Assembly (NCBI RefSeq): GCF_032854445.1
Contig: NC_088297.1
Location: forward strand, 674,169-738,168
Origin: Liolophura sinensis
Taxonomy: Eukaryota; Mollusca; Polyplacophora; Chitonida; Chitonidae
Reading direction: 5' to 3'
DNA length: 64,000 nucleotides
Positions 1,025-49,296 of the stretch are shown one piece after another. Below the pieces are notes generated by a model that ran no database searches, had not been told where the DNA came from, and was given only the letters and a program-made list of their open reading frames with translations. A program made the position numbers and the translations under genes. Numbering within the stretch: the stretch's first letter is position 1; every line of letters begins with the position of its first letter.

Positions 1025-1768
1025 CATGTTTGCTTCAAGTCTCGCAGCTGTCAAACAGACAAAATCTGGTATACACCTAATTCATCGTACTTTCAAAGGT
1101 CAGGGAAATTTTGTTGTCATGTTTGCTCCAAGTCTCGCGGCTGTCAAACAGACAAAATCTGGTATACACCTAATTCATCGTACTTTCAAAGGTCAGGGAA
1201 ATTTCGTTGTCATGTTTGCTTCAAGTCTCGCGGCTGACAAACAGACAAAATCTGGTATACACCTAATTCATCGTACTTTCAAAGGTCAGGGAAATTTAGT
1301 TGTCATGTTTGCTTCAAGTCTCGCAGCTGACAAACAGACAAAATCTGGTATACACCTAATTCATCGTACTTTCAAAGGTCAGGGAAATTTAGTTGTCATG
1401 TTTGCTTCAAGTCTCGCAGCTGACAAACAGACAAAATCTGGTATACACCTAATTCATCGTACTTTCAAAGGTCAGGGAAATTTAGTTGTCATGTTTGCTT
1501 CAAGTCTCGCAGCTGACAAACAGACAAAATCTGGTATACACCTAATTCATCGTACTTTCAAAGGTCAGGGAAATTTCGTTGTCATGTTTGCTTCAAGTCT
1601 CGCGGCTGACAAACAGACAAAATCGGGCATACATCTAATTCATCATACTTGTGAAGTTCACGGAAATTTGGTTGTCATGTTTGCTTCAAGTCTTGTGGCT
1701 GACAAACTGACAAAATCGGGCATACATCTAATTCATCATACTTGCGAAGTTCAGGGAAATTTCGTTGA
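1025..1768 (-). repeat. 93-bp tandem array x8 built from the GLS exon end plus splice donor
   Basis: Eight copies start at 1025, 1118, 1211, 1304, 1397, 1490, 1583 and 1676, spaced exactly 93 bp. The last copy runs into the real GLS exon: about 26 nt of exon 3' end plus the donor GTATGA and about 67 nt of intron form the unit. On the plus strand 93 bp (31 codons) leaves a 263-codon frame open, which I consider spurious. On the gene strand each copy carries a TAG a few codons after the donor. Confidence 0.9.
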
Positions 1769-4700
1769 AGGCCGTTCCACTCGGCTCGTGACCCACATAA
1801 TCATGGACAACCTCTGAACCAAGGTCATCCAACACTAGGGCATAGGTCAAAGGTTTGCTCATGGACTGCAGGCAGAATGGGATGTTCACATCTCCTACAG
1901 AGAATCTGAAATTCAGAGAAAAATGGACAAAAAGTAAACTAATCACTCCCTGAATCCAGGACAAAAGCTTCAAAAATTCCAAATATTTACAAATCAAATC
2001 AAATTTTCTGTATTCATCAAGAATAGCTGAAATCAATGCCTTTCAGTACATATCACATGCATGTATAGTGTTAAAATCATTCTAAAGGTTACATATAAAC
2101 ATTGCTAGAGTCTAAAGATTTTGTCAGGGTTTCATAATCACTCTAAAATCACAACCAACATGGGTTTCCTTTACATACATGTACCCTGACTGTAGAAAAG
2201 CTGGGGCCGCTTTCACAAAACTGCACAGATCATATTTCTCATAAAAGACAGTTTTTATGTTAAAGTGCCATAAGGCGACATCGTCTGCGAGAAAAGTTAC
2301 GAAAAACTGATTCATGAAGTCTTGTGAAAGAGAGGCCCAGTCTTGCAACCTATACACAGTGTTGTAGGCTATAACCACTACAAAATTAAACTGAAAAAGC
2401 GAATTTGTAATCGTAAGTATAGCTGTAATTACCTCTGGCCATCCACTGTGCAAACAGAAACTCCCCAAAGGTCCGGGCTGAAGCGAGCCAGCTGGGGAAT
2501 GTAGGAAGCCACCTGAAAATCAGCACGAGTCAACATAGAAACAATGAACCAATAAGAATCAAGCAAATGGTTAAATATGCAAATCTGATAAACAAACATG
2601 GCTGAATTAGGCGGTTCGAAAAACTGCTGCTGTACACAAAGTTTTACCAGCACCAAAGAATATCTGAAGCAATTATCGCATAGAAACTAAAACAAGAAAA
2701 AGTTCAGAACAGACAACCTGAATGACCCAAAAATAGCGCCCCTTGCTTCCAAGGAGGTAAGGATTAAACATATATAGAGTATATTTAAATACAAGGAAGC
2801 TACAGGTTTGTGAAGGAAGTTGTTTTGGGGGGGGGGGAGGTGAGGGGAGGGGCTGCTAAGGCGACAACAACATTATTTTGTCTTACGAAAGTAATTTGAA
2901 TCACTGTCTCTTAAGAACGATACAACACTAAAAACTCAAAAAACAGAATAAGTATAAATTGAAAATCTGATCTTTGTGCTTTTAAGATTTTTCAGTTTTT
3001 CAAGACTTTGTGATCACGCAAATATGTTTCCAACAGGAAAAACTGCAAACTTTCCACAAATTAGAAGATTGTCAATTTCTGTTATTTTCAGACCCTCTTT
3101 TGCCATTGATGATGCGAGTTCAAGTCCAGCTCATGCTCGCTTCCTCTTTGGCTGTATGTGGAATGGTGTGCCAGCAACCTGCGGATGGCTATGGTTTCCT
3201 TCCACAATAATGCTGGCCACCGTCATATAAGTGAAATATGCTTGAGTAAGGCATAAAACACCAATGACAGAAATAAATCCTCTGACAATGAAAAAAGATT
3301 TCTTCCACCCATAAAACAAGTAAGTTAAACTGGACAAGATTTTCAATAAAGACAGAATTATGAGAGAAAAAAAATGACACCAGACATGATTATTGATGGA
3401 ATGGAAATAAAATTGAAAATCCCACTTTTTATTTTGTCAAAACTGAAGGTTTTTCTAATTTTGATTATCTTTTTCAAGGCTTTCTGACCTCATTGTCACA
3501 TGGCTGAGACAGCCTACCTCCCAAAAATTTACTCATTTCTGAGTGTCACTTTCATTTTTACTACTCTCCTTCAACATTCAAAGGAGATTTATTATGCTCA
3601 GAGAACAAAAACCTAGCCTGGTGCAGCTTTCCCTAGTTATGTTCATAAAATTGCTTGGGATTTACCATTCCATTGTTATTGGTCTTGGCTCTCCAGTAGA
3701 GATTTTCTATCCTCTTGGAAAAAGCTGTAAATTCTGGAATTATCAGACGATTCTGGAAAGCTTTGGCCAACAGCACAATGTTATCTGTGACACATCTGCA
3801 ACAAGATGTGAGTGTGACAAGACCTTAATAGTGTGACAATTATCGGACGATTCTGGAAAGTATATGCCAACAGCACAATGTTATCTGTGACACAGCCAAA
3901 ACAAGATGTGAGTGTGACAAGACCTTAATAGTGTGACAATTATCGAACGATTCTGAAAAGTATATGCCAACAGCACAATGTTATCTGTGACACATCTGCA
4001 ACAAGATGTGTGTGTGTGACAAGACCTTAATAGTGTAACAATTATCGGATGATTCTGAAAAGTATATGCCAGCAGCACAATGTTATCTGTGACACATGTG
4101 CAACAAGATGTGAGTGTGACAAGACTTTAATAGTGTGACAATTATCAGACGATTCTGAAAAGCTTTGGCCAACAGCACAATGTTATCTGTGACACAGCCA
4201 AAACAAGATGTGAGTGTGACAAGACTTTAATAGTGTGACAATTATCAGACGATTCTGGAAAGTATATGCCAGCAGCACAATGTTATCTGTGACACATCTG
4301 CAACAAGATGTGAGAGTGACAAGACTTTAATAGTGTGACAATTATCAGACGATTCTGGAAAGCTTTGGCCAACAGCACAATGTTATCTGTGACACAGCCA
4401 AAACAAGATGTGTGTGTGACAAGACCTTAATAGTGTAACAATTATCGGATGATTCTGAAAAGTATATGCCAACAGCACAATGTTATCTGTGACACATCTG
4501 CAACAAGATGTGAGTGTGACAAGACTTTAATAGTGTGACAATTATCAGACAATTCTGGAAAGTATATGCCAACAGCACAATGTTATCTGTGACACATCTG
4601 TAACAAAATGTGAGTGTGACAAGACTTTAATAGTGTGACAATTATCAGACGATTCTGGAAAGCTTTGGCCAACAGCACAATGTTATGTTTGGACACATCT

Positions 4701-7145
4701 ACAACAAGATGTGAGTGTGACAAGACCTTAATAGTGAGACCTGTGAGGATAAATGTTAACACAATACTCTGGGTGGGAACAGACTTATACATGCAAGTCA
4801 GGTTAGCATTCAGAAATCTGTGTCACTGGCCTCAGACGCAGCCAGTCAGCTCTTAAACCACCTGAGCCATACCTAAAGCCATTCTAGTCCTCAAAAAACG
4901 TTTGGGCTCCCAAGCTGTTGGCCACCCAAGCTTATCAAGCTGTCCTAAAACTAACAAATAAACTGAACAAAGTTAAATTTTCATGCAAATTTCTTTTATT
5001 CACAGATTTAAAAGCTCTCAGAAAACAGCATTTTGTGATGAATTATATAAAATTTCAATAACCTTTAATACTTGGGATGAGAATCTTCAATTTTTTTCTA
5101 GATATGGCGTTGAGAACTGGCGTAAAAGAAACAAGAAACCACCCTTGTTTAATGACCCACCTGTAAGTCTTGTCATTATTATCACCCCTCTTGCATAAGG
5201 CTGGCGAGCGTGTTTTGCGCACCTACCCTCAACCTTTTTGCATAAGAAAGAGCAACTTTCAGCGCAGTTTATGCACATTACCAGTAATAATTAGATTTTA
5301 GATACAGAACAGCATTGGTCAGACTGGCCAATTTCATCGCCTCACAAAAACAACTTCTGTCTACACAGAGTAAAACCCTCAGAATATGCCTGAACAAACA
5401 CCCTGCAATTACAATACGTGTTGATTCATACTTCACGGACTAGGGAGTGTAATACCCTTTCTCAAAGTGAAAGGCTTACATGTTAAAGCTGGGCACAATT
5501 TTCAATTATGGTGAATGACCCAAAATTCCGCCAAAAAATTGCAATTTTAGAGGCAAATATAAAATATTTTTTTGGGAGCGGAAACAATGTTTCCAGACAG
5601 GAATATGTACCTTGCAGGCAAACATCTGAACAGCTTCCAAAGATCAAGAGACTTTCAGAATCAGGCCAAAATGTGCAACTTTTGTCACAGGCGAAATTTT
5701 AGATCACTTACCCGAAATCTCTTGTAACCATGGTAACTATACAGGTCGCTTACTCTCTAAATGTTTCCTTGTCGATGTTGATGCCATCCAATCCATCAAA
5801 GTCAGCGACTTTAGCCTGGAGATGTGAGAAGTTACCAATGGTCTCCTTCAGCCGTGGGTCTTCTTCCCGTAGGCCCGTTGCCTTGAGAGCCTGAAAAAAC
5901 ACAAACAACAGGATTTATGCATTTATTTAATACAGTTCAATACAGTTCAATACAGTTCAATACGGTTTCACACCTTACTGAAGAATGTTTCAAATGTACA
6001 ACAGCAAGCTCAGGGTCATACCTAGAAAAACACTAAAGGTTCTGAACCCAAACTTTAATGAAAAAAAAAAGTCACATTGTGACCGTGCAGAAAGAAATTT
6101 TAAAAATGAAACTCAAAATGATGCTTTTTTAAGAGCTTTTAAGCCTGTGAAAGAAATGTACTTTTCATTGGTAAACCGTCATATTTTTGATTGACTTACT
6201 TGTTAGTATTAATACAGCTTGTTTTGTTTGGGCGGTTAACAGTTTGGGCAGTTAACAGTTTGGGTGGCTTACAGTTTGGGTGGTTTACAGTTTGGGGCGG
6301 CTAACAGTTTGGGATCTCAAACGTTATCCAGAACCTAAGTGACTCCAGGTATGACATCTACTGACAACCTTTCTCATACGTGACATACAGTACATGTGTA
6401 CAACACCACATTGGTGGAATACAAGTGGCCTTTCAAGGGATACAGAATCAATTCTGATTGGCTGGTGGCAGAATTTAAACCAGGAAATCCTATCTCAACC
6501 GTCAGCCAATCACAATCGATTCTGCATCACTTTAACGATGGCTGTGTACAAACTGGGGTTCACATATTACACACAGTATACACATGTTCATTTATTTATA
6601 TATTTATTTGATTGGTGCTTTATGCCGTACTCAAGAATATTTCACTTACATGACGACAGCCAGCATTATGTTGGAAAGAAACCGGGCAGAGCCCGAGGGA
6701 AACCCACAACCATCTGCAGGTTGCTGACAGACCTACATGTGCATGTATACTAGCTATTATTGTACATATTATCCCGCATAAGACAAAATACTCTAGTATT
6801 ACAGCATACCCAGTACATATATGTACAACCAATAATGTAATGTACAACCAATAATGTATAACCGTGATGTACAACCAACAATGTACAACCAATAATGTAC
6901 AACCAACAATGTACAACCGATAATGTACAACTGATACTGTACAACAACTAATGTACAGCCGATAATGTACAACCAATAATGTAATGTACAACCAATAATG
7001 TATAACTGATAATGTACAACCACTAATCCATCCATGACTCACTGCTTTAAATCTGTTGACAGACAATCTTTGGGTCTTGTCACATAAAAGGTTGAACAGC
7101 ACATCTTCAAAGTGAGGGGGTCTGGGAGCCTCCTGGACACTGGGG
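1742..7145 (-). CDS. GLS: Glutaminase (kidney/liver type), five internal exons, 3' part beyond window
   Basis: Mitochondrial glutaminase hydrolyses glutamine to glutamate and ammonia. Five exons with GT-AG borders and matching phases: 7145-7043, 5890-5754, 3795-3666, 2512-2433, 1905-1742 (614 nt). Recognisable blocks in order are [65 protein letters not shown] and [20 protein letters not shown]. They line up end to end with the N-terminal helical region and the start of the catalytic domain of animal GLS. The SxxK catalytic pair (S-M-S-K) of the serine beta-lactamase-like fold and the tyrosine of the YIPQL motif are present. The last visible exon ends in phase 1, so the rest of the catalytic domain and the ankyrin repeats lie left of the window. 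Oddities: a 93-bp array abuts the donor at 1742, a 100-bp array abuts the acceptor at 3795, and a 14-16 bp array starts about 18 bp after the donor at 7043. Identity is very secure; the exon edges were set by eye. Confidence 0.93.
3108..3288 (+). mobile_element. SINE-A, 5'-truncated
   Basis: Begins at the box-B region (GCGAGTTCAAGTCCAGCTC) and runs to AAATAAAT; in the GLS intron. Confidence 0.75.
3744..4737 (-). repeat. 100-bp tandem array x10 built from a GLS exon start plus splice acceptor
   Basis: The TTCTGRAAAG landmark recurs at 3751, 3851, 3951, 4053, 4153, 4253, 4353, 4453, 4553 and 4653. The first copy is the genuine 5' part of the exon 3795-3666. The other nine repeat its first roughly 58 nt ([16 protein letters not shown], sometimes altered) plus about 42 nt of preceding intron. 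Six of ten copies keep an AG at the acceptor position; copies near 3890, 4190 and 4390 carry a shared variant that removes it. Confidence 0.9.
5930..5968. repeat. 10-bp repeat x4 (TTCAATACAG)
   Basis: AATACAGTTC repeated four times about 40 bp upstream of the acceptor at 5890, on the intron side. Confidence 0.7.
6228..6312. repeat. Short array, about 17 bp x5
   Basis: Repeats of (GGT)GGTTAACAGTTTGGG with small changes, in the GLS intron between 7043 and 5890. Confidence 0.75.
6589..6737 (-). mobile_element. SINE-A, 5'-truncated
   Basis: Tail TTTATTTGATTGGTGCTTTA through the core to TTGCTGACAGACC; in the GLS intron. Confidence 0.8.
6804..7025. repeat. 14-16 bp minisatellite beside the GLS donor at 7043
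   Basis: GTACAACCAATAAT and near variants repeat about 14 times, ending about 18 bp from the exon edge at 7043, inside the GLS intron. Confidence 0.8.
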
Positions 7146-7620
7146 CTGTGGGGAGAGAAGGAATTAGACTGTAAAGTGTGAATTAAAACAGTGGTGACTG
7201 GGGTATAGTTTTACATACATGCAGCTGTGGGAACGTTAGCCCTGGAAAAGCCTTTCTATATATACCTTGAACATGTACTTATGTACATCATTACATACAC
7301 CTGTAATATGTAAGTATGTAAACATGTAGATCAAAAACCCTTCATAAATACTTTTGAACGTGGGTATTGTTTTATTTCAAAAAAAAACAAAATTAAGGCT
7401 TGATTTTCGCTGTAACACACTGCAGATATACACGTATATGCATGCCAGTAAAAACAGACAACATCAAGTATTTGAGGATGAGAAAGCCTGTGCTTTTCAA
7501 GCCAAAGAATCCACAGATGTCTTCGAATAATGAACTGTTAGCAGATGTACATTCCTTGGATATTTTTCTTGTCCTAGTATCAAACACAATGACGTTTCAG
7601 GCCAGTTCTCATATGTCCCT

Positions 7621-7893
7621 GGGGGCCTCCGTGGCTCAGACGGTCAGCACGCTAGCGCAGCGTAGTGACCCAGAAGCCTCTCACCAATGCAGTCGCTGTG
7701 AGTTCAACACCAGCTCATGCTGGCTTCCTCTCCGGCTGTACGTGGGAAGGTCTGCCAGCAACCTGCGGATGGTCGTGGGTTTCCGCCGGGCTCTGCCCGG
7801 TTTCCATCCACCATAATGCTGGCCGCCGTCGTATAAGTGAAATTTTCTTGAGTGCGGCGTAAAACACCAATCAAAAAAAAAAAAAAAAAAAAA
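7621..7893 (+). mobile_element. SINE-A (tRNA-derived, V-SINE/RUDI-like), full length
   Basis: Layout of the family: a tRNA-like head beginning GGGGCCTCCGTGGCTCAG with box A (TGGCTCAGTTGG-type) and box B (GAGTTCAAGTCCAG-type); a central part with CTTCCTCTCCGGC; a conserved core with TGCGGATGGTCGTGGGTTT and CTGCCCGGTTTCCACCCACC; and a 3' end GTATAAGTGAAATATTCTTG-AGTACGGCGTAAAACACCAATC. This copy ends in a poly-A of about 20. The core resembles the V-domain of V-SINEs; the molluscan RUDI name is from memory. Confidence 0.85.
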
Positions 7894-8483
7894 TCATATG
7901 TCCCTGTATTCACAGTTGAATGTCAAATTCAAGATATATTTACAAGTAGTATGTCATGGTTGAGATACAGCCATATATATGCAATACCAGTCAAAATGGA
8001 CAGTGGACTTTAAAGTGTCACTGATATACACAGACACTTGATACATGTTGTTGCTGTTGTCTGGGACAGGCAGTTTGACAAAACTGTAACTTATGCACTG
8101 TAAACACCAAACACTGGCTCACATTGCAGTTTAGTCTGGGTATGACTGGTGAGGGTGCAGGTATGTTATAACAGGATTTTAACATTTAAAACAATGAAAC
8201 AGACAACTCATCTTGGTGTAGCAGAGCAGGTATAACCTTTCTTAATCACAAAGGCCATGTTTTAAGGTTAAATGTGCTATTTTTGGTCAATTTTTGCCTG
8301 GAAAAGGCCTTATTCATCAATATTTGGAAAGCCAGTGTCCTAGTATTAGACTTTAAGGGACATGTAACAATGCCGAGACCTGAATTGTTGTCATGGTTGT
8401 ACAGGGAGGGTGTTGTCATGTCTCCCTGAAGAGTATCATTACTGTCAAGCAGGTCATAAGAGATTACTGTCAAGCTTGTTACA

Positions 8484-8698
8484 TCTCACCAATGCGGTCG
8501 CTGTGAGTTCAAGTCCAGCTCATGCTGGCTTCCTCTCTGCCATATGTGGGAAGGTCTGCCAGCAACCTGCGGATGGTCGTGGGTTTCCCCCCGGGCTGTG
8601 CCCGGTTTCCACCCACCATAATGCTGGCCGTCGTCGTAAAAGTGAAATGTTCTTCAGTACGGCGTAAAACACCAATCAGATAAAAAAATAAATAAATC
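8484..8698 (+). mobile_element. SINE-A, 5'-truncated within the head
   Basis: Starts CTCACCAATGCGGTCGCTG. The flanks share AAGCTTGTTACATC (8474 and 8699), consistent with a target-site duplication. Further imperfect copies of that flank recur to about 8840. Confidence 0.8.
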
Positions 8699-8856
8699 AA
8701 GCTTGTTACATCAAACATTAGTGTTAAGCTTGTTACATCAAACATTAGAGTCAAGCATGTCACAATAAAGACTTCCTGACTACTGCCAAGCTTGTAATGT
8801 TAAACACTGTCATGCTGCAGACCTTAAATATTTCTGTCAAACTTGTGATGTCAAAC

Positions 8857-11800
8857 TAAGTTCACCATCAATACATGTAGTGTAGATGTACATACTGCTA
8901 AGTTCACCATCAATACATGTAGTGTAGATGTACATACTGCTAAGTTCACCATCAATACATGTAGTGTAGATGTACACACCGCAAAGTTCACCATCAATAC
9001 ATGTAGTGTAGATGTACATACTGCTAAGTTCACCATCAATACATGTTGTGTAGATGTACACACCGCTAAGTTCACCATCAATACATGTAGTGTAGATGTA
9101 CATACTGCTAAGTTCACCATCAATACATGTTGTGTAGATGTACACACCGCTAAGTTCACCATCAATACATGTAGTGTAGATGTACATACTGCTAAGTTCA
9201 CCATCAATACATGTAGTGTACATGTACATTCTGCTAAGTTCACCATCAATACATGTAGTGTAGATGTACATACTGCTAAGTTCACCATCAATACATGTAG
9301 TGTACATGTACATTCTGCTAAGTTCACCATCAATACATGTAGTGTAGATGTACATACTGCTAAGTTCACCATCAATACATGTAGTGTAGATGTACACACT
9401 GCTACGTTCACCATCAATACATGTTGTGTAGATGTACATACTGCTACGTTCACCATCAATACATGTTGTGTAGATGTACACACTGCTAAGTTCACAATCA
9501 ATACATGTAGTGTAGATGTACATTCTGCAAAGTTCACCTTCAATACATGTAGTGTAGATGTACATACTGCTAAGTTCACCATCAATACATGTAGTGTAGA
9601 TGTACACACTGCTACGTTCACCATCAATACATGTAGTGTACATGTACATTCTGCTAAGTTCACCATCAATACATGTTGTGTAGATGTACACACCGCTATG
9701 TTCACCATCAATACATGTAGTGTAAATGTACACACCACTAAGTTCACCATCAATACATGTAGTGTAGATGTACATACTGCTAAGTTCACCATCAATACAT
9801 GTAGTGTAGATATACACACCGCTAAGTTCACCATCAATACATGTAGTGTAGATGTACACACCGCTACGTTCACCATCAATACATGTTGTGTAGATGTACA
9901 CACCGCTAAGTTCACCATCAATACATGTAGTGTAGATGTACATTCTGCAAAGTTCACCATCAATACATGTTGTGTAGATATACACACTGCTAAGTTCACC
10001 ATCAATACATGTAGTGTAGATATACACACTGCTAAGTTCACCATCAATACATGTAGTGTACATGTACATTCTGCTAAGTTCACCATCAATACATGTAGTG
10101 TAGATGTACACACTGCTACGTTCACCATCAATACATGTTGTGTAGATGTACACACCGCTACGTTCACCATCAATACATGTTGTGTAGATGTACACACTGC
10201 TAAGTTCACAATCAATACATGTAGTGTAGATGTACATTCTGCAAAGTTCACCTTCAATACATGTAGTGTACATGTACATACTGCTAAGTTCACCATCAAT
10301 ACATGTAGTGTAGATGTACACACTGCTAAGTTCACAATCAATACATGTAGTGTAGATGTACATTCTGCAAAGTTCACCTTCAATACATGTAGTGTAGATG
10401 TACATACTGCTAAGTTCACCATCAATACATGTAGTGTAGATGTACACACTGCTACGTTCACCATCAATACATGTAGTGTACATGTACATTCTGCTAAGTT
10501 CACCATCAATACATGTTGTGTAGATGTACACACCGCTATGTTCACCATCAATACATGTAGTGTAAATGTACACACCACTAAGTTCACCATCAATACATGT
10601 AGTGTAGATGTACATACTGCTAAGTTCACCATCAATACATGTAGTGTAGATATACACACCGCTAAGTTCACCATCAATACATGTAGTGTAGATGTACACA
10701 CCGCTACGTTCACCATCAATACATGTTGTGTAGATGTACACACCGCTAAGTTCACCATCAATACATGTAGTGTAGATGTACATTCTGCAAAGTTCACCAT
10801 CAATACATGTTGTGTAGATATACACACTGCTAAGTTCACCATCAATACATGTTGTGTAGATGTACACACTGCTAAGTTCACCATCAATACATGTAGTGTA
10901 GATGTACATTCTGCAAAGTTCACCATCAATACATGTAGTGTAGATGTACACACTGCTAAGTTCACCATCAATACATGTAGTGTAGATGTACATACTGCTA
11001 AGTTCACCATCAATACATGTAGTGTACATGTACATACTGCTAAGTTCACCATCAATACATGTAGTGTACATGTACATACTGCCAAGTTCACCATCAATAC
11101 ATGTAGTGTACATGTACATACTGCTAAGTTCACCATCAATACATGTTGTGTAGATGTACACACTGCTAAGTTCACCATCAATACATGTAGTGTAGATGTA
11201 CACACCGCTAAGTTCACCATCAATACATGTAGTGTAGATGTACATTCTGCTAAGTTCACCATCAATACATGTTGTGTAGATGTACACACTGCTAAGTTCA
11301 CCATCAATACATGTAGTGTAGATGTACACACTGCTAAGTTCACCATCAATACATGTAGTGTAGATGTACATACTGCTAAGTTCACCATCAATACATGTTG
11401 TGTAGATGTACATTCTGCAAAGTTCACCATCAATACATGTAGTGTAGATGTACATTCTGCAAAGTTCACCATCAATACATGTAGTGTAGATGTACACACC
11501 GCTAAGTTCACCATCAATACATGTAGTGTAGATGTACATTCTGCAAAGTTCACCATCAATACATGTTGTGTAGATGTACACACTGCTAAGTTCACCATCA
11601 ATACATGTAGTGTAGATGTACATACTGCTAAGTTCACCATCAATACTTGTAGTGTACATGTACATACTGCTAAGTTCACCATCAATACATGTTGTGTAGA
11701 CGTACACACTGCTAAGTTCACCATCAATACATGTAGTGTACATGTACATACTGCTAAGTTCACCATCAATACATGTAGTGTAGATGTACATTCTGCAAAG

Positions 11801-13437
11801 TTCACCATCAATACATGTAGTGTACATGTATATACTGCTAAGTTCACCATCAATACATGTAGTGTAGATGTACATACTGCTAAGTTCACCATCAATACAT
11901 GTAGTGTACATGTACACACCACTAAGTTCACCATCAATACATGTAGTGTACATGTACATACTGCTAAGTTCACCATCAATACATGTAGTGTAGATATACA
12001 CACCGCTAAGTTCACCATCAATACATGTAGTGTAGATGTACACACCGCTACGTTCACCATCAATACATGTTGTGTAGATGTACACACTGCTAAGTTCACC
12101 ATCAATACATGTAGTGTAGATGTACATACTGCTAAGTTCACCATCAATACATGTAGTGTAGATGTACATACTGCTAAGTTCACCATCAATACATGTTGTG
12201 TAGATGTACACACTGTTAAGTTCACCATCAATACATGTAGTGTAGATATACACACTGCTAAGTTCACCATCAATACATGTAGTGTAGATGTACATACTGC
12301 TAAGTTCACCATCAATACATGTTGTGTAGATGTACACACTGCTAAGTTCATCATCAATACATGTTGTGTAGATGTACATTCTGCTAAGTTCACCATCAAT
12401 ACATGTAGTGTAGATGTACATACTGCTAAGTTCACCATCAATACATGTTGTGTAGATGTACACACTGCTAAGTTCACCATCAATGCATGTTGTGTAGATG
12501 TACACACTGCTAAGTTCACCATCAATACATGTTGTGTAGATGTACACACTGCTAAGTTCACCATCAATACATGTAGTGTAGATGTACATACTGCTAAGTT
12601 CACCATCAATACATGTAAAGTACATGTACATTCTGCTAAGTTCACCATCAATACATGTAGTGTAGATGTACATACTGCAAAGTTCACCATCAATACATGT
12701 TGTGTAGATGTACACACCGCTAAGTTCAACATCAATACATGTAGTGTAGATGTACATACTGCTAAGTTCACCATCAATACATGTAGTGTAGATGTACACA
12801 CCGCTAAGTTCACCATCAATACATGTAGTGTAGATGTACATACTGCTAAGTTCACCATCAATACATGTAGTGTAGATGTACATACTGCTAAGTTCACATC
12901 AATACATGTGTAGATATACACACTGCTAAGTCACCATCAATACATGTTGTGTAGATATACACACTGCTAGTTCACCATCAATACATGTAGTGTAGATGTA
13001 CATACTGCTAAGGTTCACCATCAATACATGTTGTGTAGATGTACATTCTGCTAAGTTCACCATCAATACATGTAGTGTAGATGTCATTCTGCTAAGTTCA
13101 CCATCAACACATGTAGTGTAGATGTACACACTGCTAAGTTCACCATCAATACATGTAGTGTACATGTACATTCTGCTAAGTTCACCATCAATACATGTAG
13201 TGTAGATGTACACACTGCTAAGTTCACCATCAATACATGTTGTGTAGATGTACACACTGCTAAGTTCACCATCAATACATGTAGTGTAGATGTACACACT
13301 GCTACGTTCACCATCAATACATGTTGTGTAGATGTACACACTGCTAAGTTCACCATCAATACATGTAGTGTAGATGTACACATCGCTAAGTTCACCATCA
13401 ATACATGTAGTGTAGATGTACACACTGCTAAGTTCAC
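8857..13437. repeat. 42-bp minisatellite, about 109 copies
   Basis: The unit is GTTCACCATCAATACATGTA followed by GTGTAGATGTACATACTGCTAA. Variants swap TAGTG/TTGTG, GATG/CATG, and CATACT/CACACC/CATTCT. Because 42 is divisible by 3, frames of over 1,000 codons remain open on both strands; indels near 12900-13100 break them. The unit contains TACATGTA palindromes. It lies in the inferred GLS first intron. No splice signals link it to a gene, so I treat it as non-coding. Confidence 0.95.
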
Positions 13438-13888
13438 ATCTCTACATGTACACGTGTAGTGAACACTTGTACGTGAACTCTGGGCCGAGTGGCAGGTGTT
13501 TGATTCTGGAGGACAACTTTTCGGTTCCAGATGTCACAATATAGGTAAGTTCATGTAATTATCCACATACGAGGCAAGTTCAGGAAGGTTGGGAATTTGA
13601 ATAAATATAATATATACATAGCCACACAGCTTATAAATGTTTTCCTGGTGAACAGATAGGGGTATAAATATGAGTACAGGTTATGGCTTTCAAGCTGAGC
13701 ACTCCTTCCAGCAATTTGCACATGTACAATTCAGGGTTTATAAATCATTGTGCAGACATGTGAACGAGTGGAGAATAATTCAACGCTTTCATCTAGTATG
13801 CCTACAAGTTTATAGAATCATTTAAAGGGGAACGTAAGAGGGTTGTCATATACAGCTAGACTTACGTACACCAGTTTATGACATTTAC

Positions 13889-21329: not shown

Positions 21330-21815
21330 CACGATAAAGAGTAAGCCCAGAGCAGCGACGAGGGTGTGATAGTTGGCAAATGGTCACATGTTACCGCTGA
21401 AATACGACTACAGCAAAGAGAGTAAAACCAGAGCAGCGACGAGAGTGTGATAGTTGGCAAATGGTCACACGTTACTGTTGAAATACGACTACAGCAAAGA
21501 GAGTAAAACCAGAGCAGCGACGAGGGTGTGATAGTTGACAAATGGTCACACGTTACTGTTGAAATACGACTACAGCAAAGACAGTAAAACCAGAGCAGCG
21601 ACCAGAGTGTGATAGTTGGCAAATGGTCACACATTACCGCTGAAATACGACTACAGCAAAGAGAGTAATACCTGAGCAGCGACGAGAGTATGATAGTCGG
21701 CAAAGGGTCACACGTTACCGCTGAAATACGACTACAGATAAGAGAGTAAAACCAGAGCAGCGACGAGAGTGTGATAGTTGGCAAATGGTCACACATTACC
21801 GCTGATATCCAGCCT
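21330..21815. repeat. 81-bp tandem array x6
   Basis: GAGCAGCGAC recurs at 21350, 21431, 21512, 21593, 21674 and 21755. Related single units occur near 30040, 38706 and 58404, so the array arose from a dispersed element. The 162-codon minus-strand frame through it is a by-product of the 27-codon period. Confidence 0.85.
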
Positions 21816-22230: not shown

Positions 22231-22237
<7 letters not shown>

Positions 22238-28665: not shown

Positions 28666-30037
28666 AACAATATAAATGTGCTTAAATTAATGTACACTCT
28701 GACAATCTATGACTCTAAACATTATAACAAATTCACAATGTCAAAGATTTCAATGGAAGAGCCATACAACTTCATGTTGCCTTTGATTCTGCCCGAGAAT
28801 TGTTAGTTCTGTTATCAGGACGCGAAGACGAAGGTCATATGGCAATGTTTCTCACGGTTGACCTTAAGTCTTTAGTAGAAAATCCCATGTATGTAACATG
28901 TTCCATTCTCACGTGAACTTGAAGTATGTCTATACAAGGTTGGTCTCCCTGGTACAGCCAGACTTAACATTAAGATACCAGTCTTATTTATATCAGGGGC
29001 AAGGTGAAAGGTCGAAATTTTCGGTGTCTATACAATGGTCTCTCTCATATACTGATCGAATGGGTCACTAATGCATATACAACAGTCTGTTACAAAACCA
29101 CTCATAACAATAGTGCCAGGGTGACACTCTGGGGGTCGATTATATTGTGTATAGTGCGGTCTGTTAGACGACAAGCCTAGGTACACACGGTAATCCACTC
29201 TAAGACGGCCGAATACGGACAATAGAATGTATAGCCATCTCGGGCTTGAAGTGAAATCTATATAATACATCAAAGTTGAATTCACATCGTATCGCCAAGG
29301 AGAATGTACAGTGTATATCACTAGGTGAATACGCGGTATTCAGGGACGTACGTTCTTTTTTGTTATTAGGTTTCAAGACTCCCGTTTACAGAATCCTGAA
29401 ATGGTGCTTTGTCAGCGCAAGGAGTGCAATTCGACCAGAATGGACAATTCGTACACATGATTATGAGAAAAGTCTGCAAAATGTAGGTTATATCTGCGTG
29501 TATAAGGCAGGCGTGTAGTGTAACCATTTTGCAACTGCGATAAACAAAAAAGAACAAAACGGTCCGTGTACCGTTTGACGTGAAGGTAGACAGTTACCAA
29601 TCGTCTTGACAAGGATAACTTTTAAGTCCACAACTGAGTTGAGGTAAAAAAGCACTTAACATACATCATTGTTTGTTGTAGTTTTTTAAGACACAGGTAC
29701 GGCTCTGTTCTACTCAAAAGCAGAACAGTCCTACTATAGTCACATCAGGAATTTTGGTTTGCCGTGTGTGTTGGAACATTACACATTTCGCGTGATAATG
29801 CCTGAAAAGCCATCGCACATAACTTAAAAATCCGAAACAAGGGCGTTTTACAGACGAGGTCGGGGCGACACGACCCAACCAATCAGAGCGAGTACTTGTG
29901 CTGTCAACCATTCACCGAAATAAAAACCTTACGCTTCCTGGTAGGCACTGTGCGGTGAAACCATTCTACTGGAAAGATTACAGCCAGAGGCCACCAACCA
30001 AGCAAAACAAACATTACAAACCTCTGTGACAGGTTTG
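28666..30037. other. Intergenic, no supported feature
   Basis: Overlapping short frames at 29028-29612 on both strands contradict each other and show no known motif. Confidence 0.5.
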
Positions 30038-30098
30038 GCTAAAGGCCACACTTCACGCGTTATGTGTGACCATTTGCCAACTATCACAATGTCGTTGG
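30038..30098 (-). repeat. Dispersed monomer fragment of the 81-bp unit
   Basis: GTGTGACCATTTGCCAACTA TCACA matches the reverse complement of the array unit. Confidence 0.55.
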
Positions 30099-30205
30099 TG
30101 CTGTTTTTTTTTTTTTTTCGGTTTTTGTTTTTTTTCTGTATGCTGTGGTGTTTTCATTATACAGCCCCTTTCCGTTCCGCATTCTGGTCAGATCTATGAT
30201 CAGAA

Positions 30206-31235: not shown

Positions 31236-31239
31236 TAGC

Positions 31240-36103: not shown

Positions 36104-36270
36104 TGGTTTTACGTCGCACTTAACAACTTGACAAAGCCATCCCGGCGTAGGCTAACTTGACTGTAACTATTTCCTTGCTCTCTGCGCTGAGCGCCAGGCA
36201 AGGCGGCAGCAACTACCATGTTTAGAGTTTTTTACTCGGGGTATGATCCGATCTCGGGTTCACATCAGCA
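36104..36270 (-). mobile_element. SINE-B, partial
   Basis: GTTTTACGTCGCACTTAACA tail (reverse) and the GCTGAGCGCCAGGCAAGGCG block. Confidence 0.55.
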
Positions 36271-36717: not shown

Positions 36718-36724
36718 GTTTATT
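36718..36724 (-). terminator. Candidate polyadenylation signal for the Ig receptor gene
   Basis: An AATAAA hexamer on the minus strand, about 305 bp past the TGA at 37029, is the first good one downstream. It is a short motif in AT-rich DNA, so the call is weak. Confidence 0.3.
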
Positions 36725-37028
36725 TTTTTTAAAGATGGTTGTCTTTTGTGCCATAAAAGACAACATTGTCAACGGAGACCTGAAATATCTCCAGTCCGAG
36801 TTCACTGACTGCAATCTGCACGAGTCAGTGTACTGGGGCTAACAATACAAAATGTCTCCAACAATACATTCTCCATAACGTCTCTGACTTAGATTTGTGG
36901 GAATGTCTCGGGCTTTGTATAGAGTTATTGCCAATGACGGTTTCCGAGAGTTTCGACAGCTGTATCATTAGTGTCTGCGACACATGAATGCAAATCATTC
37001 CTCGTTCGACTTGTCTCGTTTCACTTCC

Positions 37029-40000: not shown

Positions 40001-43000
40001 AGATGTGTCATCTCAGATGATACGAATTTATAAATGCTACATCATATTTTCCTGACCATAATGAGGAAATACACTGTTTGTTTTCTTCCATCTAGTTATT
40101 ACTTTTCAGTTATTATAAAATGTATACATTCTGCTGCATTTAGTACCGCAATTGCACATCAAGCTGAATCCTTCACAAGGGAGATAACTCTAACTGTATG
40201 TCACTTTTTACGATACCCAGCATGAGATTACATACATACCTTTATATGTGTATTCTAGTTTCGCTCGCCACGATATGGTTGAGATATTCTCGATGTGACG
40301 TTAAGCCATAATCATTCATTCCAGTTTCGCTGCTGACTTTTAGTCTTGTCACAACAATCAGTGCAACCAAAAAGCCCAAAAAGTTTAGTGTATTACGTGT
40401 ACTGTGTATCTCGTGCCAGTCGCGGACAACGTTCTGTTAGGCAAAAAGCTGTACGTAGTATCTTATCGTGCCTATACAAACGGGAACAAAAATCTTTTAG
40501 ACAAAAAGCTGTGTCTATTTATTTATTTGTTTGATTGTGTTTTACGCCGCACTCAAGTATACTTCACTTATACGATGGCAGCCTCTTCGGCCGTACGTGG
40601 GAAGGTCTGACAGCAACCTGCGGATGGTCGTGGGTTGTCCTCGGGATCTGCCCGGTTTCCTCTCATCACAATGCTGGCCGCCGTTGTGTAAGTGAAATAT
40701 TTTTGACTACGGCGTAAAACATCAATCAAATAAATAAATAAAATATACCACGGCACCAGTACTATGGTAGGAAGAAATCGCGCTGCTGACAGACCTTCAT
40801 ATGCAAGGCCGGACAGTAAGACTGGACTTGAATTCAGAGCAACCGCATAGGTGAAAGGCTTCTGGGTAACTGCGCCGCGCATGCGCGCTATAACCTCCCC
40901 CGGAAACTTTGAGAACAAAGTAATGTTACATGTGCAGCTGCAGTGTCTTACCGTGTACTTTTAGTTGTACAGTTGTGGACAAAGTTCTGTTAGACATGAA
41001 GTTGTGGTATCTTACCGTGTACTTTCAGCTGTACAGTCGATGACAAAGTTCTGCTAGATATGAAGTTGTGTATCTTACTGTGTACTTTTAGCTGTACAGT
41101 CGATAACAAAGTTCTGTTAGATATGAAGTTGTGTATCTTACTGTGTACTTTTAGCTGTATAGTCGATAACAAAGTTCTGTTAGATATGAAGTTGTGTATC
41201 TTACTGTGTACTTTTAGCTGTACAGTCGAGGCCAAAGTTCTGTTAGATATGAAGTTGTGTATCTTACAGTGTACTTTTAGCTGTACAGTCGATGACAAAG
41301 TTCTGTTAGATATGAAGTTGTGTATCTTACTGTGTACTTTTAGCTGTACAGTCGATGACAAAGTTCTGTTAGATATGAAGTTGTGTATCTTACTGTGTAC
41401 TTTTAGCTGTACAGTCGATGACAAAGTTCTGTTAGATATGAAGTTGTGTATCTTACTGTGTACTTTTAGCTGTACAGTCGATGACAAAGTTCTGTTAGAT
41501 ATGAAGTTGTGTATCTTACTGTGTACTTTTAGCTGTACAGTCGATGACAAAGTTCTGTTAGATATGAAGTTGTGTATCTTACTGCGTACTTTTAGTTGTA
41601 CAGTCGAGGAAAATGTTTTGTTAGACATGAAGCTGTGTACCTTACCGTGTACTTTCAGCTGTACAGTCGAAGACAAAGTTCTGTTAGATTTGAGGACGAT
41701 TTCACACCTATATCGAGCAGAATCGGTCAACTCTGGAGACTCCACCAGCAGAGATAGCCCTTCTCCTAAACTGTACTTCCAGGTAGCCTCTCTGGGATTA
41801 GACATGTTCTCTGGGTGCCTTGCCTCAAGCACAATAACACTGTCGAGGGGCACGAGCGAGTCACCTTTAATTACGTCCCACGTGACAATCTTAACGCTCT
41901 CTGGCTGGACATCGCGAAAACATAAGCAGGGAATTCTAACACGGGAATCACCCGTGGAAAACTTAACCAGATCAATGGCCGTTTCATGAGCTATCGCCAA
42001 ATCCAACACTGCGAAAATAAACGAAGAAAAAAATCACCACCAAAAATCACCAATTAAACACAATTTCATCGATTTGTAATAAGCATCAGTGTGAATCAGT
42101 ATGGATGAGAGTTGGTATCATTCAATGAGGAGAAAAAACACGGATCCATTCCAGGTGAAACAATATAGCCAAAGCTGAATGTCAAGAAATATTAAAAAGC
42201 GGAACAACACCACGTAGACAGGAAATAGAAGAGTTGCGCGAGGCATCATCACCCTGAGAGAACAATAGGCAGTCAGCCATACTGGAGTCCTGTTAACATG
42301 AACTGGTATATCAACAGCACTCCACTATGGCCGCCAGAAGTAGGTCATGCAGCTCTTCTATCTGTAGATTCCTCCGCTCTAACTGAATGGGGGAGCCTTG
42401 GTGACAATTTTTTTGGAACGTTTTGCACCGTCTAACGTTCATTGGAGACACAACTATTGTACGCAGAACTGTACGTCACGTGTCGGAAAGCTTCCTTAGA
42501 AACTTTCCACAGGTCAGTGATTTACCCCCGACACTCCAGTTTCCTCCACCGATAAGGCTGTCTGTGCATCACTGAATAAGGGAAACATTCTTGAGCATGG
42601 CGTTATAAAACAACCCATAGGGAAACTGTGCCTACTCTAAAGAAATTTATTCATTTATTTATTTGATTTGTGTTTTACGTCGTACCAAAGAACATTCCTG
42701 TTGCACGATGGCGGCCAACATTATGGTGGGAAGAAATCGGACAGAGCCCGGGGGAAACCCATGACCATCAGCAGGCTGCTGAACTTCCCACGTACGACCT
42801 CAGCGGAAGCCATCATGATACCCTCAGTAAAAGCTTATGATCAAAACTTGAACTTAACTCTTATTAATCAATGTTAGAATGCCGTAGAATGCCTGTTAGT
42901 ATTTCTGTGTTGATTAGTTTTAGGATATTTTCCTCCATTATTTCTTATTCGAGATTGATCACAAAGAATTGGATCTATTTGAGTAATACAATACACATGC

Positions 43001-44341: not shown

Positions 44342-44679
44342 TGTAAAGGGTTTTGGAATTTCAGCGCCAAGAACAAAAGTGTGTAGACATGAATTCCAAC
44401 AGATTACTAAATGAATGTCTCCTCAGTCGAAAAATCTGGTTGTCAGTCATACTCAAATATGTACGGGCGAACTCAAATCAAAGTACAATTGGTTCTCAAT
44501 CCACAGATACCTAAAATATTGTGCAGACAGATCGCAAAGTAGGGATCTAGTTATGATATTTTATGCACAAACACCTACGTGATTTAACAATGTCACGTGA
44601 TCAATGATGACGCAACCATGAGCATTTGCCTTTTCTTCATATCACTTGAAATGTATACTTGGCAGAAACCACAAAGAGA
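44342..44679. promoter_or_regulatory. Candidate bidirectional promoter between two divergent signal-peptide exons
   Basis: The 338 bp between the minus-strand Ig receptor ATG (44341) and the plus-strand ATG (44680) contain a palindromic TCACGTGA E-box (44593-44600) and a CRE/AP-1-like TGACGCAA (44608-44615). A head-to-head arrangement this tight suggests shared control. 5' UTR exons cannot be seen, so true start sites may lie elsewhere. Confidence 0.4.
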
Positions 44680-44750
44680 ATGCCAGCTACGTTTCTGCTC
44701 GCCATGACTCTAATAACGTTCCTTCACCTAGCGGGCAGAGCATGGGAACC
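44680..44750 (+). CDS. Signal-peptide exon of an unidentified secreted or membrane protein
   Basis: ATG (AGAGAATGCC context) opens 23 codons, MPATFLLAMTLITFLHLAGR followed by AWEP. They end at a strong donor (ACC|GTAAGC) in phase 2. The hydrophobic core and the small residues near LAGRA are those of a secretory signal peptide. I could not find the next exon on this strand in the window, so the product is unknown. It is divergently paired with the Ig receptor gene. Confidence 0.5.
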
Positions 44751-44991
44751 GTAAGCCTCCAAAGAACATAACGGATCCAGGTCATAACGTTACCGATCAC
44801 ATGGAGTTGAATGAATCTCCCTGATGGTACAGGATTCGTAGGTTTTGGTACCTGTCTAACTGCGATAGAGGAAGGAATCTCCGTTCATATGATCGACATC
44901 ACAATTGCAGTGTGTATTATTAAAGATCCAAGGAAGGACAGTGTCGAGTATTCTAAAAAATTGCGACTTCCTTAAGCAAAATTAGGCAATA

Positions 44992-45207
44992 ATGTCGTCA
45001 CAGACAGGCGCGACATCAGGCGTGGATAATGACAGCATGCGGACACTTCCGGAAACAGAAGTGATGTTTTCAGATGTCGCTGTTACGGAATCCCAACAGG
45101 TTCTTCATCGGCGTTACATTGTCACTATACTACTGGCAGTGAAGCGCAAACCAGAAAGCTACCGAGGGATACGTTACCATAACAATATATCTAAATATGC
45201 ATTATAA
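44992..45207 (+). CDS. Small open frame, possible first exon of a membrane protein
   Basis: A 71-codon frame begins MSSQTGATSGVDNDS, is polar and acidic at first, then has RRYIVTILLAV, which could be the start of a first membrane helix. A GTGAAG just after CTACTGGCA could act as donor. I do not recognise it, and it may be chance. The polar N-terminus followed by a basic-flanked hydrophobic start resembles first exons of transporters, but that is only an impression. Confidence 0.2.
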   Translation: MSSQTGATSGVDNDSMRTLPETEVMFSDVAVTESQQVLHRRYIVTILLAVKRKPESYRGIRYHNNISKYAL

Positions 45208-45714
45208 TGCAGGCTGTATGCCGGTGCGTTGATAGACTGCCAAAGCATTTGTGCTGGCAGGTTCACCTGGCAGGTACATGAGGAACAGGAGTCATGAATA
45301 TTCATTTTACCTAAGTAAATAATGCCCCGGGATAAAGCATGCAGTTCAACACGCAACGTTATATACAATGGGATTATGAGCCTATGTGCCTTTAGGACGA
45401 AATGTTATTTCTGCCGACTGCACATGTACAATGTACCAGTCTCGCGCAGCGTGCTGGAACCATATAGGATATATTATAATAAATAACTTTCTTACTTAAA
45501 TTGATTTGTTTTGATGAAGGTCTAAACAGATAACCTGTAGAGTAATAAAATATGCAAATCTGTAAATGGTGTGACATCGTGTGTATAATACTTTTTGTCG
45601 TATTGCATGCCATTATGTCCGTCGTTAAGTGAAATGTCCATGTTAAAAGGTGAGATGTCAAAAAACTTTGACTTAAAGAGCTGCTCAGTACACCTGTATG
45701 TGATGTTATATACA

Positions 45715-46411
45715 TGTTATCTGACGACGGATTGGGAATAATTTGTATCAAAACGATGTATAAAACAAATGTACACTATATCAATTCAATACAGTTCCGG
45801 AAAGTTCCGAAAGGTGTAGCGGCTTGAGAGTAGGTTTAGGTATAGGCGTTTTTCACTGTTCTCACCTGTATCAACACACCTGTCATTAACGGAGGACTGA
45901 GTTAAGGACGATATTGATTTTATATTCACAAGAAAGGAAACATTACACTTCGAATATACAGTGAATAACAATAGCCTAAAGCGCTACGCTTTACAGTGTG
46001 TACAGAGGCGAAGCAGCTGTATGAACTTTCTATACAGAGGTCCCGATGTATTATGCACATAGCTCCGTTATCATAACATATTTGTGTTCAGATCCATCAG
46101 GTTTACGTTGACCGTGCTACTGAGAACTGCATCTGCTTTGAAATTTCTGTTATATTATGCATACATTGATTTTCAGTTTTACGTCATTATGTTTTTGCAC
46201 CATCCGCATTTGTGCACTGTCCGCATTGGTGCGGAGGATTTTTGTTGGAAGTGCCGTGCGTCCTTCACGCGGAAAACGCCAATACCTGAACCTACTCTCC
46301 AGACGATACACCTTTCGGAACTTTTCGGAACTATACTGAATTTATCTAGTGTACATTTATTATTTACATCGTTTTGATACAAAGTATTCCCAATCAGTCA
46401 TCAGATAACAT
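45715..46411. mobile_element. Non-autonomous inverted-repeat element, about 700 bp
   Basis: The left arm (about 45715-45850) matches the reverse complement of the right arm (about 46276-46411) over about 135 bp. Shared words are GTTATCTGA at the outer ends, TGTATCAAAACGATGTA, AGTTCCGAAAGGTGTA and GAGAGTAGGTT. No transposase-like frame lies between them. A target duplication is not clear. Confidence 0.8.
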
Positions 46412-46866
46412 ACGGGGAATGTTTTACGCCGTAAAATATTACTTGCGACATCTAATACCACGTGTTTTTTTTTTAAACGGCGGCCCACACCAAACACGCG
46501 GAAAACGCAAAGGACACGATTACGAGGACTTCACGAAGTCCGCGCCTTTTTAAAACCGTGTACTAATGGGGCAATAAACTGCTTCACTTGTCCACTATTA
46601 CATGTTTGCAAAGTTTTTCACAACGTTATCTTTCACATGTACAATACATATAGCGAAGTGAAGGGAGGTAATGCAATCAAAGAACGTCGTATCAAGTTAT
46701 GACGTTTTCATTGGCTCTCAATGTCTTTTCATTGGAGGGACGCGATTATGACATCAGCATTTATCATATTATATATCGACCAACGTTTCGGTTCAGGTTT
46801 CGACCATCTGAGACGTGTGGATTATCAGTCTGCATAATATTGTGATAGACAGTTCCTCTGAAGAGG

Positions 46867-47128
46867 GGGCCTCCGTGGCTCAGTCGGTTACCGCGCTAGC
46901 GCAGCGTAATGATCCAGGAGCTTCTCACCAATGCGGTCGCTGTGAGTTCAAGTCCAGCTCATGCTGGCTTCCTCTCCGGCCGTAAGTGGGAATGTCTGCC
47001 AGCAACCCGCGGATGGTCGTGGGTTTCCCCCTGGCTCTGCCCGGTTTCCACCTGGTGGCCGCCGTCGTATAAGTGAAATATTCTTGAGTACGGCGTAAAA
47101 CACCAAACAAAAAAACAAAACAAAAAAA
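46867..47128 (+). mobile_element. SINE-A, full length, with target-site duplication
   Basis: TCCTCTGAAGAG flanks both ends; the tail is (CAAAAAA)n instead of (AAAT)n, and part of the core is missing. Confidence 0.9.
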
Positions 47129-47160
47129 TCCTCTGAAGAGTATTCACTTAAGTTAACAGA

Positions 47161-47302
47161 GGATATTGCACAGTAAAGGCTGAATACCATAAATGTTGTT
47201 CGAGTGACAGGTGGAAATGATAACCCATGAAACGCGGGTTATCATTTCTACTTTTCAAGAGATTTATTTACGGTATTCAATCTTCACTGCGCAATATTCT
47301 AT
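47161..47302. mobile_element. Foldback/MITE-like hairpin
   Basis: Arms of about 65 bp (for example GAAATGATAACCC versus GGGTTATCATTTC, and GAATACC(A/G)TAAAT versus its complement) surround a 9-nt loop ATGAAACGC. Outer ends read ATATTGC(A/G)CAGT. Confidence 0.8.
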
Positions 47303-48602
47303 TTATTATTTATATTCTGACATTTTCTCTATATTTATATAAATGCGTATCAGTTTATCTGTAGCCTCAGTGAAAAAAAAGCTATGTGCCATCTTCGTCG
47401 TATTTCTGATTCTTTTCATACGCGCTGCAATTTCGTTCACGTCCGCGCCCACAAAACTTTTTTACTATTTTAAACGCTGTCTGTAAGTAATTACAGATCA
47501 TACAAAGGTGCTTAATGCTAATGCAATATAAGTACTTACGTAAAGTAAGCACATGGAGATTTTCTACTTCTTTTTTGGCGAACTATATATAAGTGCACGG
47601 CCTTGTGATGCGGTCCACGAGGCACGGTCTATCGGTCAAGGTCTCCAGCAGTGTAATAGCACAATGTAATAACAAAAGTGATATCTAACTAGAGAAGATA
47701 TCATTTTTATGAGTGATGGAAATACTGGGATTTCACCGATGTATAAATAATAATACGGTGTTCTTCATAAGGTAAGTAACCCAGTCTCATGACAGAATGT
47801 AAAAAATACACGAATGTCAAAGTTGATAGGGTTTTTATGCGCATGTATGCCCACAGCAGTATGAGTGCCAACGTTGGTATTACAGGCGAGAATTTATCAA
47901 CGAGAATATAAACCGACCTATAGGGGGTTACTTTCACTAAATTTGGTAATTCAGAGTTTCTCTTATTCAGGGTAAAACATCATGTAGCGACGTGATATGG
48001 GGCCTACATGTGCTACATTAACGTTACAAAAAACCGACTTACGAAGTTTTGTCAAAAGTGACCCGCTCTAGTTTCTCCATTGTGTCCTTAACTTCTGAAC
48101 CTTACTAAGCGTTAGGACACATTACAAACCTGAAATGACGAATTTGGGGGAGGGTGTGGGTGGGGGGGGGGGGGGGGGGGGGGAGAATATGTGAGGTAAA
48201 GAATTTCGACCATTTAACTGAGTGTAACTATTGGTATCGGCTTCCTCAACCATAGAAGACTGTATACATCGTCATACAGATGACATGACTTCATAATCTT
48301 CCCACCCTAACAAAAGTTAAGAACTGCAGTTATGGACAGATGACCAATATAGTAAGTATTGTTTTGTGATTTCTTTTATACTTATATATCCACTGCAGTT
48401 AGCGGTCATTATGTCAGGACAAAGACTGTGTAAATAAACAAAATTTATGAACTAAATCATGTACGTTTAAAAAACAACGACTAGAACACAACAGTTATAG
48501 CTGTAATGTGACGTTTATAATAAATAATACATGTCCATTTACTGGTTCTTCACTGGTTTTCAGCGAACGGAAGTGACAAATATATAGACTATCAACTCTG
48601 CA
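47303..48602. other. Intergenic, AT-rich
   Basis: One poly-G tract. No coding frame with splice support was seen before the ATG at 48603. Confidence 0.5.
48160..48184. repeat. Poly-G tract
   Basis: A run of more than 20 G with a GGTGTGGGTG lead-in. Other G or C runs occur near 2827, 17045, 19596, 20322, 21210 and 35828. Such tracts can form G-quadruplexes. Confidence 0.8.
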
Positions 48603-48718
48603 ATGGCGACGAAAGAGAAACTGACAGAGTATAAAGACCTCGAGAAGCTGAGAGAGAGGCAGTCACGTGGACGAGAAAAGAAAAGGGCATTTGGCAGGTT
48701 ACAGGGACAGGTACAAAG

Positions 48719-49296
48719 GTACGTGATATACTCTCTGTGTTCTGTTGTATAGTGGAAGCTGTACACATTAACTGATATACTCACTATATTCTTTTGTATA
48801 GTGGGATCGGTACAAGGTGCGTGATATACTCTCTGTGTTCTGCTGTATAGTGAGAGCGGTACAACGTAGGTGATATACTCTCTGTGTTCTGTTGAATAGT
48901 GAGAGCAGTACAAGGTAGGTGATATACGCTCTGCGTTCTCTTGTATAGTGGGAGTGGTACACATTACGTGATGTACTGTCTGTATTCTGTTGTATAGTGG
49001 GATCAGCACAAGGTAGGTAGGTATACTCTCTAAGTTCTGTGGAATAGTGGAAAATGTACAATGTAAGTGATATACTCTCTGTGTTCTCTTGTATAGTGGG
49101 AGTGGTACACATTACGTGATGTACTCTCTGTATTCTGTTGTAAAATGGGATCAGCACAAGGTAGGTAGGTATACTTTCTAAGTTCTGTTGTATAGTGGAA
49201 AATGTACAATGTAAGTGATATACTCTCTGTGTTCTCTTGTATAGTGGAAGCGCTACAAGGTACGTGATATACTCTCTGTATTCTGTTGTATCGTAG
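48719..49296 (+). repeat. 49-bp tandem array x12 filling the whole intron of the 48.6-kb locus
   Basis: Units of the type GATATACTCTCTGTGTTCTG plus TTGTATAGTGGGAGCGGTAC plus AAGGTACGT follow each other without spacers from the exon donor (AAAG|GTACGT, 48718/48719) to the next acceptor (TCGTAG|, 49296). Each unit contains a TATAG acceptor-like site, a 14-15 nt exon-like piece and a GTACGT or GTAGGT donor-like site. A three-unit (147-bp) higher-order pattern occurs twice near 48920-49205. Confidence 0.85.

Follow-up and report, generated by a model that had tools for sequence, protein, structure and literature searches.

The window analysed here, a stretch of 64,000 nucleotides from the genome of the chiton Liolophura sinensis (assembly GCF_032854445.1, NC_088297.1, positions 674,169 to 738,168 of the forward strand), contains a glutaminase (GLS) gene and an immunoglobulin-like (Ig-like) gene in which minisatellites lie across exon edges. 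A first-pass annotation had described four arrays, each spanning an exon edge, in three separate genes. Arrays in the window were detected using Tandem Repeats Finder (TRF), and the four concerned are given below in window coordinates.

Array 1, 1020–1767, minus strand: 93-bp unit, 8.0 copies, 96% matches (TRF).
Array 2, 3738–4740, minus strand: 100-bp unit, 10.0 copies, 89% matches (TRF).
Array 3, 40946–41693, minus strand: 63-bp unit, 11.9 copies, 94% matches (TRF).
Array 4, 48710–49298, plus strand: 49-bp unit, 12.0 copies, 75% matches (TRF).

Arrays 1 and 2 share one host, the GLS gene, which lies on the minus strand; array 3 belongs to the Ig-like gene. The exons that define these junctions are as follows.

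5890–5754, minus strand: upstream GLS exon with AG/GT edges, whose phase fixes the acceptor at 3795.
3795–3666, minus strand: GLS exon whose acceptor is repeated; AG/GT edges, frame join and PDB match.
2512–2433, minus strand: GLS exon lacking an array; Pfam Glutaminase, E 8e-6, 25.7 bits, slightly under the cut-off of 27; PDB match.
1905–1742, minus strand: GLS exon whose donor is repeated; Pfam Glutaminase, E 8.7e-16; phmmer match in PDB; frame join.
42008–41646, minus strand: Ig-like exon; Pfam V-set, E 0.0013, 19.4 bits, under the cut-off of 26.

The four AG/GT-edged GLS exons splice in silico to a single open frame of 170 residues, and a 124-residue piece from three of the four aligns over residues 1–122 to the solved kidney glutaminase (phmmer against PDB, E 7e-48). 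Because the exons join in frame and match this structure, the first-pass annotation is taken to be correct in its placing of both the 1742 donor and the 3795 acceptor. The acceptor is fixed by phase, since the upstream exon ends in GA and the next begins with A, with E-C-V spanning the junction. The edge proposed for the Ig-like exon at 41646 carries the high-scoring donor ACG/GTAAGG (the slash marks the exon end); as the V-set match is weak, this predicted edge is accepted with less certainty than those of GLS.

The structure of arrays 1–3 and their junctions are observed directly. The unit of array 1 consists of 26 bp from the 3′ end of the GLS exon, then the donor, then 67 bp of intron sequence. 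GT is kept in all eight copies, seven of them decoys after the true donor; the donors read CAA/GTATGA in the two exon-proximal copies and AAA/GTACGA in the other six, and the seven decoys are identical to the true copy at 80–87 of 93 positions. In array 2, the unit comprises the initial 58 bp of the GLS exon together with ∼42 bp of intron including the acceptor, and the junction AG is retained in 6 of 10 copies, the true one counted. The unit of array 3 holds the terminal 48 bp of the Ig-like exon, the donor and 15 bp of intron, giving 12 GTAAG sites across 11.9 copies (true copy counted), with G preceding GT at three of the 12, namely the true site and the two outermost. In all three arrays the exon-proximal copy is the true junction and expansion runs entirely toward the intron; copy-by-copy reading of the junctions thus bears out, for arrays 1–3, the earlier statement that every copy but one is a decoy. 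Local alignment of each unit to its own junction scored 57, 82 and 60 for arrays 1–3, respectively, against best scores of 18, 16 and 16 with any other edge, and the own-junction scores were reached by none of 200 shuffles.

Array 4 had been described as a whole small intron with both splice sites. GT and AG are present at its borders, yet neither of the flanking open reading frames (48603–48719 before; 49343–49621 after) has a Pfam match, and the array is retained as an unproven candidate for such an intron, without protein support. Across this region (48603–49621) both flanking frames are charged and stops separate the array from the second; they may represent a decayed or lineage-specific gene. 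Since array 4 is without protein support and GLS hosts two arrays, the reliable tally comes to three junction arrays, hosted by two genes, of which the GLS pair is firm and the Ig array likely, and not four arrays in three genes. TRF and junction alignment agree with the first-pass annotation on the first three.

An established model holds that tandem duplication of an exonic piece bearing AGGT creates a new intron (available part of PMC4974935), and it resembles the present case in that splice signals are multiplied by tandem duplication. By this account the arrays would be young introns, with array 4 as a possible case of an intron built from repeats alone. We regard this as quite improbable. 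Whereas the model draws on an exonic piece, the molluscan units span an existing junction, with ∼67, 42 and 15 bp of intron in arrays 1–3, so the intron predates the duplication. In addition, the GLS exons joined across array 2 align without a gap to the solved glutaminase, and array 2 occupies just part of its intron.

The organization of arrays 1–3 is that of the ‘mirage’ minisatellites of amphioxus, in that the unit spans an exon–intron boundary and recurs in tandem, its copies carrying decoy AG or GT, the Ig edge being the weaker case. The term was reportedly coined in a paper on the minisatellites of amphioxus Adh3. Amphioxus mirages (Adh3, troponin C, the globins BflGb6 and BflGb9, PGBD5) likewise have tandem units across the donor- or acceptor-side boundary, many units with AG/GT decoys, and boundary copies that are less homogenised than the inner ones. 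For the globin mirages, the available part of the paper describes AG/GT decoys, length instability and regular splicing as suggested by reverse-transcription PCR (PMC3087553); the PGBD5 mirage is described, and Adh and troponin C mentioned, in the part available of PMC3902484. We consider it probable that arrays 1–3 are mirage minisatellites that arose by tandem duplication of junctions; that arrays in this genome start preferentially from junctions has moderate support.

Recurrence of this anatomy was observed in myosin genes. The genome (609 Mb, 632 contigs) was searched, and six myosin gene regions, holding 29 of the 81 exon matches, were chosen by the number of those matches before their letters were read. 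One of the 29 matches (L070 1–92, poor translation) was left out before the null test, and the sample then comprised 56,103 bp with 28 exons and 15 arrays (period of at least 20, score of at least 100). An exon edge is crossed by four of the 15 arrays, listed here by region.

L069, 7542–7733: 31 bp × 6.2, crosses the donor at 7556.
L070, 1146–2506: 32 bp × 42.9, crosses the acceptor at 2498.
L074, 5678–6233: 31 bp × 18, crosses the donor at 6218.
L074, 8219–8743: 66 bp × 8.1, crosses the donor at 8728.

Exon translations align in PDB to myosin VIIa for L074 (the exon of its first junction plus the one that follows), to myosin Va for L070 and to muscle myosin for L069. The best PDB matches of the muscle-myosin piece are scallop chains. 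At the myosin Va acceptor (L070 683–2506), the interval 601–2520 contains 46 occurrences of TTTGTAGGTTTGAG, the final one being at the true exon.

The relationship between unit and junction extends beyond the arrays that cross an edge. Units of eight of the 15 myosin arrays match one of five junctions, with scores of 24–68 that none of 200 shuffles equalled; each of them was compared with all the edges in its region, and the shuffle figure should not be read as a corrected probability. Three of these eight lie in L072, where 32-bp units match a donor and the nearest array starts 60 bp past the exon. A ninth array (L074 7285–8237) gave a weak score of 21, and the top scores of the remaining six were 12 to 17. 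A minimum of 30 bases for edge windows and a range of 20 to 130 bases for units applied in this test, which covered the myosin arrays and window arrays 1–3, the other 12 window arrays and the P450 and kinase arrays described below lying outside it.

Such a pattern might also arise if minisatellites start anywhere by chance and those born in exons persist only at edges, where the true junction is outermost. This account, which competes with the proposed process and not with the anatomy of the arrays, seems to us a serious contender, if a rather doubtful one. Overlap of arrays with exon edges, the check suggested in the first-pass annotation, was therefore compared in sampled genes with two null models: a ‘tolerated’ null, in which no array covers an exon or enters it by more than one unit, and a ‘uniform’ null permitting every placement, arrays inside exons included. 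Under the tolerated null, which has survivorship built in, the myosin sample still shows four crossing arrays against 0.43 expected (P 6e-4).

A number of results weigh against a preference for junctions and favour chance with survivorship. Arrays cover 18% of the myosin regions, so some overlap is expected, and under the uniform null the four myosin crossings compare with 1.73 expected (P 0.083). At cytochrome P450 loci none of 10 arrays crosses the edge of a matched exon (0.76 expected), nor does any of five at kinase loci (0.24 expected), these samples being the best 30 of 99 P450 and the best 30 of 138 kinase matches; 18 AMP-binding matches lay outside the sample. When myosin, P450 and kinase arrays are pooled, the tolerated null gives 4 of 30 against 1.43 expected (P 0.041), which remains above what survivorship would produce, and the uniform null gives 4 against 4.53 (P 0.69); as uniform placement yields no pooled excess, the excess leans on the survivorship null. 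Moreover, most exon edges in the null tests were set by hand from the ends of matches. For P450 and kinase loci the matched stretch stood for the exon and some long open frames may be intronless, so not all of these edges are splice edges. Two 35-bp arrays, L034 1874–2857 and L035 1–1467, lie ∼90–105 bp upstream of P450 acceptors, with the exon not reached.

Within the window itself, three of the 15 arrays run across an exon edge, with 0.24 expected under the tolerated null (P 0.0016) and 0.72 under the uniform null (P 0.032), figures to be read in the light of the window having been picked post hoc, a weak point that also counts against junction preference. The edges used for a DTW-domain gene and for kelch exons are approximate, and the other 12 arrays cross no known exon edge, although exons without a known domain may be missed.

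A second line of evidence comes from genome-wide motif counts on both strands, for which the donor motif MAGGTRAGT was required three times with gaps of 12–42 bp and compared with its reversal, a GT-to-TG swap and the reversed swap. An excess of triplicated donors was observed directly, with 1192 matches, which overlap within arrays, against 349 for the reversed motif (3.4-fold) and 341 for the swap. The single-copy donor motif was found 33,488 times against 24,245 for its reversal, a ratio of 1.38, and once this is corrected for, donor triplicates still exceed those of the reversed control 2.5-fold, which argues against chance and survivorship as the whole explanation. With the 9,243 surplus single copies counted as real donors, the arithmetic gives 843 extra triplicates, or 0.091 for each, compared with 0.014 per background motif. 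The count is insensitive, since none of the eight junctions shows exact-form donor decoys in the printed units.

The motif counts have weaker sides too, which tell against junction preference. The donor has just 2.1 times as many triplicated matches as the reversed-swap control (567), and the acceptor motif YTTTNCAGG, with 601 matches against 338 for its control, is without a single-copy baseline. For the first 14.9 Mb of contig C1, the matches listed fall into 16 donor and 4 control loci (binomial P 0.035); over 93.9 Mb there are 13 control loci, and because locus density is uneven no weight is put on the lower P obtained from the longer stretch. A general richness of arrays in gene regions, which the motif test does not remove, may contribute.

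Taken together, these data suggest that a disproportionate share of tandem arrays in this molluscan genome originates from junctions. This would point, with moderate support, to mutation itself favouring junctions, beyond the survival of harmless cases, and the recurrent junction-expanding process put forward in the first-pass annotation is supported, not proven: the myosin sample and the triplicated donors speak for it, whereas the lack of crossings among the 15 P450 and kinase arrays and an excess that depends on the null speak against. The broader proposal, that splice junctions are hotspots of tandem expansion throughout the genome, the junction itself seeding minisatellites and real donors being several times likelier to become triplicated, we advance tentatively, as a possibility a little short of an even call. 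Pausing, R-loop formation or breakage at exon edges are examples of how seeding could then occur.

In the mechanism we favour, a short segment across an exon–intron junction would be duplicated in tandem and then multiplied via slippage or unequal exchange. The exon-proximal copy would remain the working junction, kept by selection on the coding sequence, and the remaining copies would join the intron and be spliced out with it. Junction arrays may be easily tolerated because a working junction would be restored whenever the true copy exchanges with a decoy. The correct copy is probably chosen through exon definition. Correct splicing past the arrays is predicted in this way from the DNA, frame continuity having been seen in GLS only.

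The decoys could, on another account, be spare splice sites retained to tune or diversify splicing. Junction letters are kept, true copies counted (GT in 8 of 8 copies of array 1, AG in 6 of 10 of array 2, 12 GTAAG sites in array 3), and the frame of array 3 stays open as far as 40993. There is also a human precedent, the minisatellite of IFI6 (6-16), which is said to yield several splice donors (Turri 1995). It resembles the molluscan arrays in being an exon-end repeat carrying multiple donors, and in the available part of PMC4526556 two downstream repeat units are employed as donors. Against retained function, read-through of the GLS donor adds S-M-M-N followed by a stop, so that splicing from a decoy at this place would give a truncated protein; units of 31, 32 and 100 bp have lengths not divisible by three, and decoys in them would, if used, put the frame out; and in array 3 A or T precedes GT at 9 of 12 sites, which score below the true site. 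We consider a function of this kind unlikely.

Repeats may be collapsed or over-expanded during assembly, and the lengths of the molluscan arrays are known from one assembly alone, whereas in amphioxus both length polymorphism and regular splicing have been studied. That the arrays themselves are artefactual is nonetheless a very slight prospect, as the copies of array 1 differ by point changes (80–87 of 93 positions shared) and the anatomy is repeated at five other junctions of the assembly.

Tandem repeats internal to human segmental duplications also have minisatellite-size units at exon–intron boundaries (available part of PMC2812944), and these can make novel introns or alternative splicing in recent paralogues, whereas the molluscan arrays flank existing introns of old genes. 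An intron minisatellite has been published for abalone and is not described as a junction repeat in the part consulted (PMC6905558). No report of mirages in molluscs was found among the papers listed in literature searches, which covered open-licence papers only. As far as these searches show, the arrays belong to a known but little-known type for which molluscs are a new phylum. They differ from those of amphioxus in their hosts (GLS, the Ig-like gene and, among myosin genes, three in which arrays cross an exon edge and a fourth in which they lie near one) and in that one reaches ∼43 copies.

Several other features were noted. In the myosin regions, L069 5202–5300 and 6295–6387 are consecutive, similar versions of one myosin-head exon (profile positions 118–152 and 121–152), perhaps mutually exclusive exons, and a 65-bp unit repeated ∼52 times at L074 950–4335, in the myosin VIIa-like gene, matches no known junction. 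In the window, a 42-bp unit is repeated ∼110 times over 4.6 kb (8856–13450), with long open frames on both strands and no known exon edge near, and an 81-bp array at 21338–21805 lies in a 177-residue minus-strand open frame resembling a translated stretch near 29945–30196. A dispersed element of ∼267 bp gave 33 alignments in the 64 kb including the probe, the others being up to 93% identical. It looks like a short interspersed element (SINE); SINEs of such a kind are common in molluscs. Its letters were not found in the papers searched, and a 53-bp array at 57610–57922 has seemingly grown from one copy. Searches of the window with Rfam (gathering thresholds) and a tRNA scan were both empty. 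Elsewhere, the genome search gave eight matches to the haemocyanin domain PF14830, all on a single strand within 11.4 kb (C8:37880506–37891931), presumably corresponding to the eight-unit haemocyanin of molluscs. Amphioxus as the source of the window, a reading prompted by the mirage literature, was rejected on this result, and the scallop matches of the muscle-myosin exon agree.

If splice junctions are indeed hotspots of this kind, hundreds to thousands of introns would carry long runs of nearly identical decoys that the spliceosome must ignore. Junction arrays, if common, would provide natural experiments on splice-site choice, the myosin genes already offering an acceptor with dozens of near-identical copies upstream and a donor followed by five near-copies. 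Mirages would then not be specific to amphioxus, and a claim on how minisatellites and new introns originate could be put to a direct count.

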